Assembly (NCBI GenBank): GCA_020073015.1 | Contig: JAIQFZ010000003.1 | Location: 1-64,000, forward strand | Direction of reading: 5' to 3' | Origin: Terriglobia bacterium | Lineage (GTDB): Bacteria; Acidobacteriota; Terriglobia; Terriglobales; Acidobacteriaceae | Length of the DNA stretch: 64,000 nucleotides | Shown here: positions 46,729 through 52,905 of the stretch, piece by piece | Position numbering within the stretch: position 1 is the first letter of the stretch | How the letters are laid out: each line of letters starts with the position of its first letter | The notes under the pieces: generated by a model | The model's database searches: none | What the model was told of the DNA's origin: nothing | Seen by the model: only the letters and a program-made list of their open reading frames with translations | Translations under genes and position numbers: made by a program

Positions 46729-48711
46729 ATGAGCAAAAAGTTCTACATCACGACTCCGATTTACTACGTGAATGCGCGTCCGCACATTGGACACGCCTAC
46801 ACCACCATTGCCTGCGACACGATCGCCCGCCGCCACCGCCTGCTCGGCGATGACACCTTTTTCCTCACCGGAACCGACGAGCACGGGCAGAAGATCGAGC
46901 GCGCCGCCCAGGCGGCCGGGAAGACGCCGCAGGAGTTTGCCGATGAAGTATCGAATGCCTTCCGCGCCAGCTGGGATCGTCTCGGACTTTCCTACGACGA
47001 CTTCATCCGCACCACGTCGGATCGTCACAAGCAGGGCGTGCAGGCGCTGTGGCGAAGGATTCGAGACAATGGCTATATCTACAAGGGCACCTATACCGGC
47101 CAGTACTGCGTTTTCGATGAACTGTATGTCGATGCAGTCGGGCCGGGCGCTCCCTGCCCGGACTGCGGACGGCCCACCGAGACCGTTCACGAAGAGAACT
47201 ACTACTTCAAGCTCTCCGCCTTCCAGGACAAGCTGATCCAGCTTTATACGGAACAGCCGAACTTCATTCGCCCGGAAACGCGCCGGAATGAAGTGCTGTC
47301 GTTCGTTCGCTCAGGTCTGCGCGATCTGTCCATCAGTCGCTCGACGTTTTCGTGGGGGATCCCAGTACCTGACGATCCGAAGCACGTGACCTACGTCTGG
47401 CTGGACGCGCTCGCCAACTACATCACCGCGCTCGGCTTTGGCTCGAACGACACGAGCAAATTCGAGAAATATTGGCCCGCCGACGTGCACATGATCGGCA
47501 AAGAGATCGTGCGCTTTCACTGCGTCTACTGGCCGGCGTTCCTGATGGCTGCGGGACTGTCTCTCCCCAAGGGCATCACCGCGCACGGCTGGCTGCTGTT
47601 TGAAGAAAACAAGATGTCGAAGTCGCGCGGAAATATCGTGCGCGCCGAGACCATCGTCGATGTGCTCGGTATCGACGCGCTGCGCTACTTCCTGCTGAGA
47701 GAGATCGTCTTTGGACAGGACGGATCGTTCAGCTTCGACGCGCTGGTACAGCGCTACAACGCCGATCTGGCAAACGGCCTGGGTAACCTGGCGAGCCGTA
47801 CGCTCACGATGATTACCCGCTACTTCAAGGGCGAAGTTCCGTACCCGTCACACACCGCGCGCACCCCGGCCGACGAAGCGATTGTGGACGCGGCCGGAAA
47901 GGCCATCACGGAATACGGCGCTCTGTTCGACCAATACCAGTTTTCACGAGCGCTGGAAACAGCGTGGGGATTGGTTGCCGCTGTCGACAAGTACATCGTC
48001 GAAAACGAGCCCTGGTCGCTCGGTGAAAAACAGGATGAAGAAAGCCGCAGGCGGCTGGCAACTGTCCTCTACACCAGTGCGGAGGCTTTGCGCATTGTGA
48101 CTGCGCTGGCGCATCCGGTCATGCCCGACGCCACCGCGAAGATCTGGGCGCAGTTGGGTCTTGGAGATATCAGGAAGTTCGATCTGTCGCAGTTGCAGTG
48201 GGGACAACTGCATCTGGGCACGAAGCTGGGCGAGGTGCAAGCCGTGTTCCCGCGCGCGGACAAATCAGCTATCGAAAGGATGCAGAAAATGGAAGAACAG
48301 AGTGGAGGGACGGGCGTCTCGCCCGTCCAGCCGAGCGAAGCTCAGCCAGTTGCTGGTGCTAAGCCAGCGGCCGCGATTCCCGAGGGCAAGATTAGCATCG
48401 ACGATTTCGCCAAGGTCGAATTGCGTGTGGCCCAGGTGAAGACGGCCGAGCGCGTCAAAGGCGCGGATAAACTGCTGCGGATCGAAGTCGATCTCGGCAC
48501 GGAAGTCCGCCAACTTGTCGCTGGCATCGCCGAAGCGTACGCGCCTGAGTCCCTAATCGGGCGAAAGGTGGTGATCGTGGCCAATCTCGCACCTCGCAAA
48601 TTGCGCGGATTGGAGTCGAACGGCATGATTGTGGCCGCGTCGCCCGAGGGCGGGAAACCGGTGCTGGCTAGCTTTCTGGAAGATGTGCCGGTGGGCACTC
48701 GACTGAAATAG
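46729..48711 (+). CDS. metG: Methionyl-tRNA synthetase with C-terminal tRNA-binding domain
   Basis: 660 aa. Class I synthetase with HIGH as PHIGHAYTT (residues 18-26), zinc knuckle CPDC, and KMSKSRG (near residue 295). Residues about 555-660 are an EMAPII/Trbp111-type tRNA-binding OB fold (FAKVELRVAQVKTAERV) used for dimerisation and tRNA binding. The linker (about 525-550) is encoded by a palindromic repeat at 48307-48328. It charges initiator and elongator tRNA-Met. Confidence 0.96.
   Translation: MSKKFYITTPIYYVNARPHIGHAYTTIACDTIARRHRLLGDDTFFLTGTDEHGQKIERAAQAAGKTPQEFADEVSNAFRASWDRLGLSYDDFIRTTSDRHKQGVQALWRRIRDNGYIYKGTYTGQYCVFDELYVDAVGPGAPCPDCGRPTETVHEENYYFKLSAFQDKLIQLYTEQPNFIRPETRRNEVLSFVRSGLRDLSISRSTFSWGIPVPDDPKHVTYVWLDALANYITALGFGSNDTSKFEKYWPADVHMIGKEIVRFHCVYWPAFLMAAGLSLPKGITAHGWLLFEENKMSKSRGNIVRAETIVDVLGIDALRYFLLREIVFGQDGSFSFDALVQRYNADLANGLGNLASRTLTMITRYFKGEVPYPSHTARTPADEAIVDAAGKAITEYGALFDQYQFSRALETAWGLVAAVDKYIVENEPWSLGEKQDEESRRRLATVLYTSAEALRIVTALAHPVMPDATAKIWAQLGLGDIRKFDLSQLQWGQLHLGTKLGEVQAVFPRADKSAIERMQKMEEQSGGTGVSPVQPSEAQPVAGAKPAAAIPEGKISIDDFAKVELRVAQVKTAERVKGADKLLRIEVDLGTEVRQLVAGIAEAYAPESLIGRKVVIVANLAPRKLRGLESNGMIVAASPEGGKPVLASFLEDVPVGTRLK
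48307..48345. repeat. GGACGGGCGTCTCGCCCGTCC palindrome in the metG linker
   Basis: Hairpin GGACGGGCGTCTCGCCCGTCC followed by AGCCGAGCGAAGCTCAGC; read in frame as the GGTGVSPVQPSEAQP linker between catalytic and tRNA-binding domains. The element after the metG stop (48722-48761) contains the same GCCGAGC-AGCTTCG words. Confidence 0.75.
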
Positions 48712-48721
48712 TCCCCGCGCT

Positions 48722-48761
48722 GCCGAGCTTCGCTCGGCTGGACAGCCGGGGGCGGCTGTCC
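48722..48761. repeat. Two hairpins between metG and tatD
   Basis: GCCGAGCTTCGCTCGGC (48722-48738) and GGACAGCC-GGGGGC-GGCTGTCC (48740-48761) fill the metG-tatD spacer. The GTG of tatD lies five bases beyond, so they may affect its ribosome access. Confidence 0.7.
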
Positions 48762-48765
48762 CTAC

Positions 48766-49596
48766 GTGAACATGTTCATCGACTCCCACGCTCATCTCGA
48801 GGGCAAGCGCTACGACGCGGACCGGGACCAGGTGCTGGCTCGGGCGAAACAGAGCGGCATTGTTGCCTATCTCGCTATCGGCAACGGCAACGGCCCTGAC
48901 ACTGCCGACTGCGGAATCCAACTCGCCGAACAATACAACGGGAAGCCAGAGTACCCGCAAATCTGGACGAGCGTCGGTATTCATCCCCACGAAGCTAGTC
49001 TCGCAAACGACACCGCATACGCCCGACTGGAGCAGTGGGCCCGCCATCCCCGGGTCATCGCCTGGGGTGAAATGGGCCTGGATTACTTTTACGATCACTC
49101 ACCGCGGGAGGTACAGAAAGCCGTCTTCCGACAGCAGACGGAACTGGCAAGAGCGGCCAAGCTGCCGATCATCATTCACTGCCGTCCATCCGACAACAGC
49201 GAGAACGCCTGGGACGATTGCCTGGCGCTGATCGGCCAGCATTGGACTTCCAGCGGATTGGGCGGCATTCTGCACTGCTTCACGGGCACGGTCGAGCATG
49301 CCCGGCGTGGCCTGGACCTGGGCTTCATGATTTCCTTCGCCGGCAACATCACATTCCCCAAAGCGCAGAATATTCGCGATGCGGCGCAGATGGTGCCGCT
49401 CGACCGCATGCTGATCGAGACCGATTCTCCCTATCTGGCGCCGATTCCGCATCGCGGACAGCGCAACGAGCCCGCATTCGTGAAAGAAGTTGCGGCGCAG
49501 ATCGGAGCCTTGCGCGATCAGACAATGGAGGAAATCGGTCGGCAAACCACGGCGAACTTTTGCAGATTCTTTGCTCTGGGCGAAATGACCTCCTGA
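48766..49596 (+). CDS. tatD: TatD-family metal-dependent hydrolase
   Basis: 276 aa, TIM-barrel amidohydrolase-like nuclease. Metal-ligand motifs IDSHAHLEG (residue 5 on), GEMGLDYFYDHSPREVQ, IIHCRPS, LHCFTGT and IETDSPYLAP are in the usual order. TatD enzymes act as DNA exonucleases or D-aminoacyl-tRNA deacylases in different hosts. Start GTG at 48766 or ATG at 48772. It follows metG, a common gene order. Confidence 0.93.
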   Translation: MNMFIDSHAHLEGKRYDADRDQVLARAKQSGIVAYLAIGNGNGPDTADCGIQLAEQYNGKPEYPQIWTSVGIHPHEASLANDTAYARLEQWARHPRVIAWGEMGLDYFYDHSPREVQKAVFRQQTELARAAKLPIIIHCRPSDNSENAWDDCLALIGQHWTSSGLGGILHCFTGTVEHARRGLDLGFMISFAGNITFPKAQNIRDAAQMVPLDRMLIETDSPYLAPIPHRGQRNEPAFVKEVAAQIGALRDQTMEEIGRQTTANFCRFFALGEMTS

Positions 49597-49664
49597 ACTG
49601 TCGTTCGTGTGCCCATAGAACGATACTTCTGATACCCTCAAGAGTTAAGTGGGGGAGATGTTTG

Positions 49665-49690
49665 CTCGAAGCTCGTGGCTCGTGGCCAAA
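49665..49690. repeat. Short-word intergenic repeat (GAAGCTCGTGGCTCGTGG)
   Basis: Words of GCTCGTGG in the gap between tatD and yajQ, in the style of the other spacer word repeats. Confidence 0.5.
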
Positions 49691-49728
49691 GCAGCAGCAT
49701 GACAATCTAAGAGCGTAAGCACTAGCAC

Positions 49729-50226
49729 ATGCCCGACAACACATTCGATATCGTCAGCAAGATCGACCTGCAGGAAGTTTCAAACGCGATCCAGCAGGCG
49801 ATGAAGGAAATTACAACTCGCTTCGATTTGAAGGACTCCAAGTCGCAAATCGCGCTGGAGGGTAAGGATGCGATCATTCTCCACTCGGCCGACGAGTACA
49901 AGATGAAGGCGGTCAATGACGTTTTCCAGCAGAAACTGGTGAAACGCGGCGTACCGCTCAAAGGGCTGACCTACGGGGCGCTTGAGCCCGCGGCGAGCAG
50001 TACCGTGAAGCAGAAGATCACGATGCAGCAAGGCATTCCGATCGAAAAAGCGCGCGAGATCGTGAAGGTGATCAAAGAGTCCAAGAAGAAGGTGCAAGCA
50101 TCGATCCAGGGCGACCTGGTGCGTGTCAGCGGCAAAGACCGCGATACACTGCAGGAGATCATCGCACTCTTGCGGCAAAAAGACTTCGGCATCGATATGC
50201 AGTTCACGAATTATCGTACGAACTGA
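49729..50226 (+). CDS. yajQ: YajQ-family nucleotide-binding protein
   Basis: 165 aa. Begins MPDNTFDIVSKIDLQEVSNA and ends DFGIDMQFTNYR, both diagnostic of YajQ. Family members bind nucleotides, and some bind cyclic-di-GMP and act as transcriptional coregulators. The full length is normal. It fits with the other cyclic-di-GMP genes in the window, but direct c-di-GMP binding here is inference. Confidence 0.93.
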   Translation: MPDNTFDIVSKIDLQEVSNAIQQAMKEITTRFDLKDSKSQIALEGKDAIILHSADEYKMKAVNDVFQQKLVKRGVPLKGLTYGALEPAASSTVKQKITMQQGIPIEKAREIVKVIKESKKKVQASIQGDLVRVSGKDRDTLQEIIALLRQKDFGIDMQFTNYRTN

Positions 50227-50233
50227 ACGCTTG

Positions 50234-50325
50234 AACCGCAGAGCACGCGGAGGACGCAGAGTTTCCTGGATGGAAGCGCATCGTGTTAGCAATCAGCTAC
50301 TCTGCGTGCTTGCGTTCTCCGGTTA
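50234..50325. repeat. Intergenic inverted word repeat (CCGCAGAG ... CTCTGCG)
   Basis: Left arm AACCGCAGAGCACGCGGAGG (50234 on) and right arm ending GCGTTCTCCGGTT (50300-50325) are imperfect reverse complements. It lies between yajQ and the polyprenyl synthase gene. Confidence 0.65.
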
Positions 50326-50351
50326 GAGATTTTTGGCGATCGGATCCCTAG

Positions 50352-51341
50352 TTGAGTGCAACCACGGCCATTAACGGGAAAGAGATCTTCGATTTGCTGC
50401 GCGACGACATTGTCGCCATTGAGGAACAGTTCGGACGCGACACGGTCTCGAACGTAGCAGCGATCACGGAGATCGGCGAGTACTTGCGTGCTGGCGGCGG
50501 CAAGCGGATCCGGCCCGCGCTACTGCTGCTGTCCGCCAAGCTGTTCCACTACAAAGGGACCGGCGCGGTCAAGCTCGCCTCGGTCGTGGAAATCATCCAC
50601 ACCGCCACGCTGGTTCATGACGACATCATCGACGAAGCCCAGACGCGCCGCGGACGGCCCGCTGCCAACACGCGATGGGGCAACTCAAAATGCGTGCTGG
50701 CCGGGGACTGGCTCTACATGCAGGCCTTCAAGATCGCCGTCCAGGAGCGCAACTTCCGCATCCTCGACGTGCTGATTGAATTGACCCAGCAGATGGTCGA
50801 GGGTGAACTGCTGCAGATGGAAAAACTGGGCAAGCTCATCTCGCCGCAGGAGTATCTCGACCTGATCTACCGCAAGACGGCCTGCCTGTTCTCGGTGTGC
50901 ATGCGGGTAGGAAGCATCCTCGGGGGCGCGAACGCCGAACAGGAACAGCGCCTGGGGCAGTACGGCCATGACCTTGGGATGGCCTTTCAGATCGTCGACG
51001 ATGTCCTCGACCTCACCGCATCCGAGAGTGTGCTGGGAAAGCCGGTAGCCAGTGACCTGCGCGAAGGCAAAGTCACCATGGCGGTGATTCATGCGCTCGA
51101 GCGCTGCACTCCCGAGGAACGAAAGCAGATTGAAACCGTCTTGCGCGACCGCGCTTTCAACGGTGTCACGCACGCCGACATTCTGTCGATCCTGAACCGC
51201 TACGGCTCGCTCGAGTTTGCTTCCAAAGAAGCCTCGCGTTATGCCGAATCGGCGCGCAACGCAATTTGTGTGTTCCCCGACTCGGAAATCAAGCGCGCGC
51301 TGCTGTGGGCGCCGGAGTTCGTGGTGGTGAGAGAAAAGTAG
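50352..51341 (+). CDS. Polyprenyl diphosphate synthase
   Basis: 329 aa trans-prenyltransferase. First aspartate-rich motif VHDDIIDEAQTRRG (near residue 89), second IVDDVLDLT (near residue 214) and GKPVASDLREGK support chain elongation of allylic diphosphates, for quinone side chains (octaprenyl/solanesyl type) or, less likely, farnesyl. The start is TTG, because the family motif order begins right away. It stands alone. Confidence 0.92.
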   Translation: MSATTAINGKEIFDLLRDDIVAIEEQFGRDTVSNVAAITEIGEYLRAGGGKRIRPALLLLSAKLFHYKGTGAVKLASVVEIIHTATLVHDDIIDEAQTRRGRPAANTRWGNSKCVLAGDWLYMQAFKIAVQERNFRILDVLIELTQQMVEGELLQMEKLGKLISPQEYLDLIYRKTACLFSVCMRVGSILGGANAEQEQRLGQYGHDLGMAFQIVDDVLDLTASESVLGKPVASDLREGKVTMAVIHALERCTPEERKQIETVLRDRAFNGVTHADILSILNRYGSLEFASKEASRYAESARNAICVFPDSEIKRALLWAPEFVVVREK

Positions 51342-51825: not shown

Positions 51826-51933
51826 GTACCCTCCTGAAGTCGTACCAATTTATCAGGCTTTCTCCGCGAAGAACCATGGCAGCCGGACCGCCGGGAGTTT
51901 TGCGATTGTTATACTGAGTGAACCATTTTCTCC

Positions 51934-52905
51934 ATGGAAGACCTGCTTCCTCTCATCTCGCGCCACGGTTACAGCCTGCTGGCGGCGGTCTGCCTCGCCG
52001 AAGCCGTCGGGTTTCCCTTGCCGGCGGCCCTGGCCATCGTGACGGCGGGTGCCGTGGCCGCCTATGGAAACATGCACTTCTATTCCGTATTCGGCGTGGC
52101 ATTCCTGGCGATGCTGTCGGGCGATGTGCTCCTGTATTTCCTGGGGCGGGTCAGCGGATGGGCACTGCTCGGATTCTTGTGCCGTTTGTCTGCCAATCCT
52201 GAGAGTTGCATCCTTCGCTCGGCAGAGTACTTCTACCGGCGCGGCAAGCAGACGCTGCTGTTTGCGAAGTTCATTCCCGGTATCAACACTATGTCGCCGC
52301 CGCTCGCCGGCAGTATGAAGATGCGGGTCGAGGATTTCTTGCAGTTCGATGCCGCCGGCGCCGCGCTTTACGTTGGCGTTTACTCGGCTGCCGGCTACTT
52401 CTTCAGCGACGCCTTGCGCGCCATCACGCGGGGCCTGCGCTCGGCTGGGTTTGCGGCTGAGGTGGTGTTCGGAGTCGGGCTCGCCGCGTACGTGATCTAT
52501 CGCATCTGGGTGTACCGCAAATACCGCTTGCTCGACGTAGTTCCGCGCATTCCGGTCGAGGAATTGGCGCAGCGTCTGGCATCCGACGAACGCCACGCAA
52601 TCCTGATTGCCGACGTGCGCAGCCACGGTTACTACGACGCGGACTCGGACCGCATTGCGGGATCCATTCGCATCGAACCCAACAACCTCGAAGAGGAGAT
52701 CAAGAACCTGCCCAAGGAGCGAGAGATTTATCTCTACTGTACTTGAGCGCGCGAAGCGACTAGCGCCCGGGTGGCGCATCTCTTGCAGGAGCAGGGATTC
52801 AAGGCGTTTGTCATCGCCGGCGGTCTGCGGGCGTGGCGTAAGGCTGGACATCCGCTCGAATCCGTGCCGCACGACGACCTGGTCAAGCTTCCCATGTTCA
52901 CTTGA
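51934..52905 (+). CDS. DedA-rhodanese fusion with in-frame TGA: candidate selenoprotein
   Basis: If the TGA at 52744-52746 is read as selenocysteine (Sec), the product is 323 aa. Residues 1-195 form a DedA/VTT membrane domain (HGYSLLAAVCLAEAVGFPLP, GRVSGWALLG, FIPGINTMSPPLAGS). Residues about 205-315 form a rhodanese domain: IADVRSHGYYDADSDRIAGS, then the catalytic loop EIYLYCT-Sec-AREATSARVAHL, and FVIAGGLRAWRKAGHPLE, which ends at a normal TGA (52903). Many relatives have Cys at this second position, so the TGA sits exactly where a redox residue belongs. A SECIS-like hairpin follows at 52751-52786. If TGA is a stop, the protein ends inside the rhodanese active-site loop. Sequencing error or recent mutation is possible; SelB/tRNA-Sec genes are not in the window. 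Confidence 0.8.
52751..52786 (+). promoter_or_regulatory. Candidate bacterial SECIS hairpin
   Basis: Starting five bases after the in-frame TGA: an outer stem GC(G)AAG (52751-52756) with CTTGC (52782-52786), an internal loop, and an apical 5-bp stem GCGCC (52763-52767) with GGCGC (52773-52777) around loop CGGGT. The apical loop starts 21 nt after the TGA and has G among its first two bases, in line with the known bacterial SECIS model (loop 3-14 nt, spacing about 16-37 nt). Confidence 0.6.

Follow-up and report, generated by a model that had tools for sequence, protein, structure and literature searches.

The window, by which the whole analysed stretch of 64,000 nucleotides is meant, carries on its forward strand a reading frame at 51934-52905, which starts with ATG at 51934, meets an in-frame TGA at 52744-52746 (residue 271) and continues for 52 codons more up to a terminal stop TGA at 52903-52905. 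The product has 323 residues if the UGA is read as selenocysteine (Sec). A DedA/VTT membrane domain has been identified at residues 31-155 (52024-52398, forward strand; Pfam PF09335 VTT_dom, 44 bits against a gathering cut-off of 33.9), and it is followed by a rhodanese domain at residues 209-303 (52558-52842, forward strand; PF00581, 43.1 bits against a gathering cut-off of 22.2), the match of which spans the in-frame TGA. The codon of Cys269 (52738-52740, forward strand), which occupies the position of the rhodanese active-loop Cys, was found to be invariant in the alignments A1 (12 rows) and A2 (42 rows). The TGA lies two codons past this Cys, and the active loop is C269-T-U271, i.e. a C-x-U motif. 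In the DedA part, the forward-strand codons of Cys83 (52180-52182) and Cys92 (52207-52209) form a CX8C pair; Cys is present at the first position in 47 of 47 usable fusion rows and at the second in 46 of 47, with Ser in L215, and E. coli YghB has Gly and Tyr, respectively, at these sites. An antisense ORF of 339 aa (51853-52872) overlaps the gene on the opposite strand.

The AlphaFold model of the window protein has a mean pLDDT of 79.5 and a pTM of 0.60. The best Foldseek matches of this model are mainly rhodanese-domain entries, which supports the rhodanese fold, and no entry titled DedA was seen among the 50 Foldseek rows shown. The initial annotation had described a DedA-rhodanese frame with an in-frame TGA two codons past the loop Cys, and this was borne out by the coordinates, the Pfam matches and the motif. 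Its statement that the frame stays open for 52 codons more, to the stop at 52903, also held. On its own the open frame is weak evidence, because a 52-codon open stretch is expected by chance in about 18% of random stretches at 59.7% GC, and the case rests on comparison. Among the TGA-ended ORFs of at least 200 aa in the window, 9 of 35 are open for 52 codons afterwards.

The gene neighbourhood was compared over 100 loci, comprising 80 named GTDB loci (the best 80 of 197 relatives, all with acidobacterial titles) and 20 distant loci. The 16 largest flanking-ORF clusters of these 100 loci, read by eye, showed no sel gene, and only the gene itself and its antisense shadow recur in the distant loci among these clusters. 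Upstream and on the same strand (46729-51341 in the window; loci L100-L179) there are often genes resembling polyprenyl synthase (58 of the 80 named loci), tatD (53), metG (42) and yajQ (39), the gene names being assigned by our own reading; none of them was met in the 20 distant loci, several flanks being short. A dispersed repeat with a length of at least 42 bases, whose copies share 92.9-97.6% identity, is present at 48720-48761 of the window, at 1075-1116 of L051 and at 1-42 of L011. The window copy lies between the two genes taken as metG and tatD, and the other copies lie inside selA, on two contigs.

Conservation of the TGA and its exchange with Cys

Among 398 genomes of the same family, the TGA form was found in 101 genomes (104 rows), always with a single TGA per match and with identities reaching down to 53-55%. 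Only matches down to E 8e-80 enter into the 101 TGA and 45 non-TGA genomes, which are lower bounds, and G381, where a cut non-TGA copy stands beside two TGA copies, has been counted as a TGA genome. Two TGA-bearing copies of the gene are found in each of G276, G329 and G381. C-x-TGA is present at the same residue in all 48 loci of same-family relatives which were read besides the window's own. In the 80 named loci, position 271 is TGA in 78 and TGC in 2; their titles name Acidobacteria, Acidobacteriaceae, Terriglobia, Terriglobales and Ca. Sulfotelmatobacter, many of them from fen, bog, palsa and soil. A phylum-level sample of 247 genomes gave 47 genomes with a match at E 1e-30, 23 of which hold 24 TGA rows with identities down to 30%, and in this sample the TGA form is spread over 11 family codes, the own family included. 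In the 20 distant TGA loci read, two of them from the family code of the window, the TGA directly follows C-T in 19 and C-A in one, and Pro comes next in 19. Position 271 was never TAA or TAG in the rows read.

The frame behind the TGA is under strong purifying selection, as pN (0.017-0.235) lies far below pS (0.20-0.77) after the TGA in 13 pairs of the window gene with an ortholog. Conservation across the TGA is thus beyond chance, because of this low pN and the recurrence of the TGA in 101 same-family genomes.

The initial annotation had further claimed that many relatives carry a second Cys at the TGA site, and this also held. All 19 close non-TGA fusion rows (43-60% identity) have Cys, as TGC or TGT, at residue 271; they are the ones read out of the 45 non-TGA genomes, the other 26 being known only as stop-free within the match. 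In the wider set, 21 of 23 usable non-TGA rows have Cys, the exceptions being L215 with Ser and L217 with Arg. These two represent a divergent DedA-rhodanese paralog with its own group in the tree, and they have been kept in the counts. In the 48-row set, L216 leaves the frame before residue 269 and L209 is mis-cut; L209 was not used for C83, C92 and residue 118, and neither row was used for residue 271. In a plasmid collection 46 records match, and the one which was read, from Xanthomonas sacchari, has Cys.

A quick tree of 78 rows, made without L201, L209, L216 and YghB, took in 39 of the 66 rows of the codon alignment, from which L007 and L081 had been dropped as duplicates and L045, L050 and L068 as partial. 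The U/C labels need 6 changes on this tree against shuffled means of about 24, and the starred branches force at least 4 of them. Support is weak on many branches of the tree, which does not test the direction of change. The two TGC genomes G056 and G100 (59-60% identical) are nested among Sec forms. They may represent one switch or two, because both share an unresolved fork with one TGA row. It is possible that Sec is the older state in the phylum, which is our reading and has not been shown, the direction of the tree being untested.

The SECIS-like hairpin and the selenocysteine machinery

A SECIS-like hairpin, which the initial annotation had not mentioned, was found in our study at 52763-52777 on the forward strand, with a 5-bp stem GCGCC/GGCGC and the loop CGGGT at 52768-52772. 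It occupies nt 17-31 after the TGA. The bacterial SECIS model, as quoted in PMC13188914, demands a stem of 4-16 bp, a loop of 3-9 nt located 16-37 nt from the UGA and a G within the first two loop positions; all of these criteria are met, with a 5-bp stem and a 5-nt loop starting at nt 22, and each of the 104 distinct sequences has G as its second loop base. The 47 TGA rows yield 117 conserved columns with degenerate codons, in which the commonest codon has a mean share of 0.65, and the only invariant ones are TGA271, AGC277, GCC278, GTG280 and GCG281. Codon 282 encodes H, R, Q or L by codons which all begin with C, the base which closes the stem, and C stands at this first position in each of the 77 complete TGA loci of the named set. 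The same codons vary in 19 Cys rows, where AGC is used in 15 of 19 for Ser, GTG in 4 of 13 for Val (GTC in 8) and GCG in 8 of 19 for Ala.

The 16-base core AGCGCCCG[GT]GTGGCGC is exact in 76 of the 77 complete named TGA loci, the remaining one having A in the loop. In 104 distinct 48-mers the five stem pairs form in 98, 102, 104, 104 and 104 sequences. For the 19 distinct distant TGA sequences, 87 of 95 stem cells pair against 25-66 if the stem is slid by 1-3 bases; 6 of the 19 lack the outermost pair, and 2 lack the one next to it. Double changes are seen at pair 18-30, from C-G to T-A in L193 and from C-G to G-C in L187, the latter losing the outer pair. In L197, Arg279 is changed to Ser and Val280 to Leu and the stem is still kept. 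In minimum free energy folds of a wider 45-nt stretch, several family members choose another fold.

The initial annotation had named selA, selB, selD and a tRNA-Sec as genes to be looked for, and all were found, so that selA, selB, selC and selD are present in the window genome (5.50 Mb, 99.18% complete, 245 contigs), with selA in two contig pieces. The tRNA-Sec scores 71 bits against a cut-off of 47 and is reported by ARAGORN as tRNA-SeC with anticodon tca (UCA); selB is found with 374 bits, and selD is over its cut-off. The selD frame (L095, 2095-2097, minus strand) holds a TGA of its own, in the context KAAG-U-ASKLSP and with a predicted stem-loop right behind it, which provides independent support for UGA recoding in this organism. 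The two selA pieces cover model positions 1-135 on contig C189 and 137-451 on C136. At the break both pieces carry one and the same dispersed repeat of 42 bases (97.6% identical), through which either frame stays open; on this basis selA is likely, though not proven, to be intact and split by an in-frame insertion together with an assembly break.

Across the same-family genomes, selB (scored as present at a best E under about 1e-70) is over the cut-off in 88 of 101 TGA genomes and in none of 45 non-TGA genomes (Fisher p 3e-26, a test which ignores relatedness). Among the 13 TGA genomes without selB over the cut-off, 11 are at most 85% complete and 12 have selA over the cut-off; G288 (82% complete) has the TGA, yet neither selA nor selB over the cut-off. 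In the distant TGA genomes selB is over the cut-off in 18 of 19, with G448 as the exception. In G448 (99% complete) and in G077 and G092 (97-99%) the TGA is present although no single selB match exceeds the cut-off; G077 and G092 hold selB-like fragments and selA. G056 (100% complete) and G100 (90%) have TGC and neither selA nor selB over the cut-off. Among the sequence-based observations, this natural experiment makes the clearest case for a dependence of the codon on the machinery. Sec is not enforced by the machinery, because G460 and G437 have the Cys form despite retaining selA and selB.

Taken together, the pairing with Cys, the conserved UGA, the SECIS-type hairpin at a fixed distance and the occurrence mostly in genomes with Sec machinery point to a conserved selenoprotein family. 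It is very likely that the gene encodes a selenoprotein with Sec at UGA 271; this is based on sequence evidence only, without protein, 75Se or read data. The selenoprotein candidacy put forward in the initial annotation is supported, and none of the outcomes named there as refuting it, such as a genome without selA, selB and selC or homologs with a non-redox residue at this position, came true at the sequence level.

Related proteins and rival explanations

The best NCBIfam match of the window protein is NF041203, rhodanese_LYCAU ('rhodanese-like domain-containing protein form 3', CxU), with 83.7 bits and E 8e-24, and it has the same Sec position, two residues past the loop Cys. This CxU rhodanese form 3 is included in selenoproteome reviews (PMC13188914, PMC9312934). 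The curated cut-off of 115 is not reached by the window protein, nor by any of the 9 relatives scanned (73.5-94.7 bits), and the NF041203 profile, with 126 positions, is single-domain and too short for a DedA domain, unlike the window protein. DedA-rhodanese fusions are already in print (PMC10127716, PMC12893004), and P. aeruginosa PA1209 has been named as one (PMC12893004). The Cys-type 'DedA family protein/thiosulfate sulfurtransferase GlpE' fusion of X. sacchari (WP_043095768.1) has the same two domains in the same order as well as C83, C92 and C269, with Cys (YCACPNE) where the window protein has Sec. TsoB, a rhodanese/DsbD fusion-like selenoprotein (NF045694; PMC13188914), also joins, by its name, a Sec rhodanese to a membrane-protein-like part; it differs in its partner and in its motif UxxxxU, and NF045694 is not among the NCBIfam matches of the window protein.

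A Sec-type DedA-rhodanese fusion was not found in the literature searched, from which most subscription papers and all supplements were left out, and databases may hold unpublished annotations. The terms 'DedA' and 'VTT' are absent from the main text of PMC13188914 and from the searched passages of PMC12013277. The earlier statement that no described example of this exact fusion is known is consistent with this. Hence the domain, the Sec position and the fusion are each known, and the combination is new as far as the literature was searched.

The DedA half shares the common VTT family with the COG0586 DedA flippases YghB and UptA. In YghB, residues E39, D51, R130 and R136 are held to be essential for undecaprenyl-phosphate (UndP) flipping (PMC10127716), and these align with E23, A32, K112 and N118 of the window protein. 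E23 and K112 correspond, whereas D51 and R136 are replaced, and the extra CX8C pair and the rhodanese domain are further differences from these flippases. The COG0586 UndP flippase test of two acidic and two basic tip residues is not met, Arg at 118 occurs in 0 of 47 usable fusion rows, and the UptA models match the window protein far below the cut-off. Because the equivalents of D51 and R136 are replaced and no Arg is found at 118 in the 47 rows, it is likely, as inferred from the sequence, that the DedA half is not a standard UndP flippase.

It may be argued that the TGA is a real stop, in which case the product would be a DedA protein with a truncated rhodanese, the frame behind it being in decay or translated on its own. 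In favour of this explanation, TGA serves as a normal stop in the window genome and terminates the gene itself, and 52 codons stay open behind the TGA in 9 of the 35 TGA-ended ORFs mentioned above. It is nevertheless left with hardly any room by the single TGA within the match, at the same place, in 101 same-family genomes and never as TAA or TAG in the rows read, by the low pN relative to pS behind it and by the Cys in close orthologs without TGA. Another possibility is that a suppressor tRNA or a reassigned one reads the UGA as Cys or Trp and not as Sec; Cys is indeed the replacement residue, and readthrough alone would account for the open frame. This too can be set aside almost completely, as the genome has the sel genes and a UCA tRNA-Sec (further UCA tRNAs remain possible, ARAGORN having covered only four loci), a SECIS-type hairpin constrained at silent sites lies behind the TGA, and selB co-occurs with the TGA.

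The two other rivals accept a selenoprotein and differ on its role. The DedA half could be an ordinary UndP flippase and the Sec-rhodanese a mere regulatory or detoxifying add-on. In support of this, rhodanese fusions occur in COG0586, the subfamily regarded as the putative UndP flippases (PMC10127716), and two of the four essential residues correspond. This is judged unlikely in view of the changes of D51 to A32 and R136 to N118, the missing Arg at 118 in all usable fusion rows and the poor match of the UptA models. Alternatively, Sec271 could mainly handle selenium, with the domain binding or delivering reduced selenium, e.g. toward SelD. Rhodaneses are able to carry selenium, and genomes with the Sec form mostly hold selB; on the other hand, Cys forms persist in G056 and G100 without selA or selB, and no sel gene was seen beside the gene, the commonest neighbours resembling metG, tatD, yajQ and polyprenyl synthase. 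There is very little to recommend this last explanation.

Proposed function and significance

According to the preferred reading, SelB and the Sec-tRNA would read the UGA and give a single protein of 323 residues, in which a DedA membrane domain is joined to a rhodanese domain that probably faces the cytosol; this orientation is inferred from an Arg/Lys-rich segment just before the rhodanese domain. C269 would take up sulfane sulfur as a persulfide, and U271 would attack this persulfide, resolve it via a Se-S bond or pass the sulfur on, with C83 and C92 of the CX8C pair acting as redox partner at the membrane. The proposed chemistry of Sec271 is drawn from selenoenzymes at large. That the domain is not a plain sulfurtransferase but reduces persulfides or carries sulfur, with C83/C92 as its redox partner, is inferred without any direct evidence or activity data, and we hold it to be slightly more doubtful than probable. 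The AlphaFold confidence near C83 and C92 is low (block means 57-63), and the model gives no support for the geometry of C83, C92, C269 and U271. The membrane-tethered selenium or sulfur redox enzyme suggested in the initial annotation hence remains an inference.

A bolder reading may also be entertained as a possibility. The proteins would then belong to one selenoprotein family that extends across the phylum Acidobacteriota, and their DedA domain, not being a flippase, would exchange electrons or sulfane sulfur through C83/C92 with a Cys-x-Sec rhodanese, as an undescribed membrane sulfur relay or persulfide reductase. Sec would be the older state in this phylum and would have given way to Cys repeatedly, in some cases in lineages that lack the Sec machinery.

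Our study has revealed an apparently unrecorded membrane selenoprotein family which is common among uncultured acidobacteria, and whose protein an ordinary gene finder would truncate at residue 270. The link of the DedA-rhodanese fusion to UndP has been termed 'unclear' (PMC10127716), and a chemistry favoured by selenium is a strong clue to this unexplained fusion. Nature also provides a clean comparison here, through Cys and Sec orthologs of one protein in relatives that have the machinery and in relatives that lack it.
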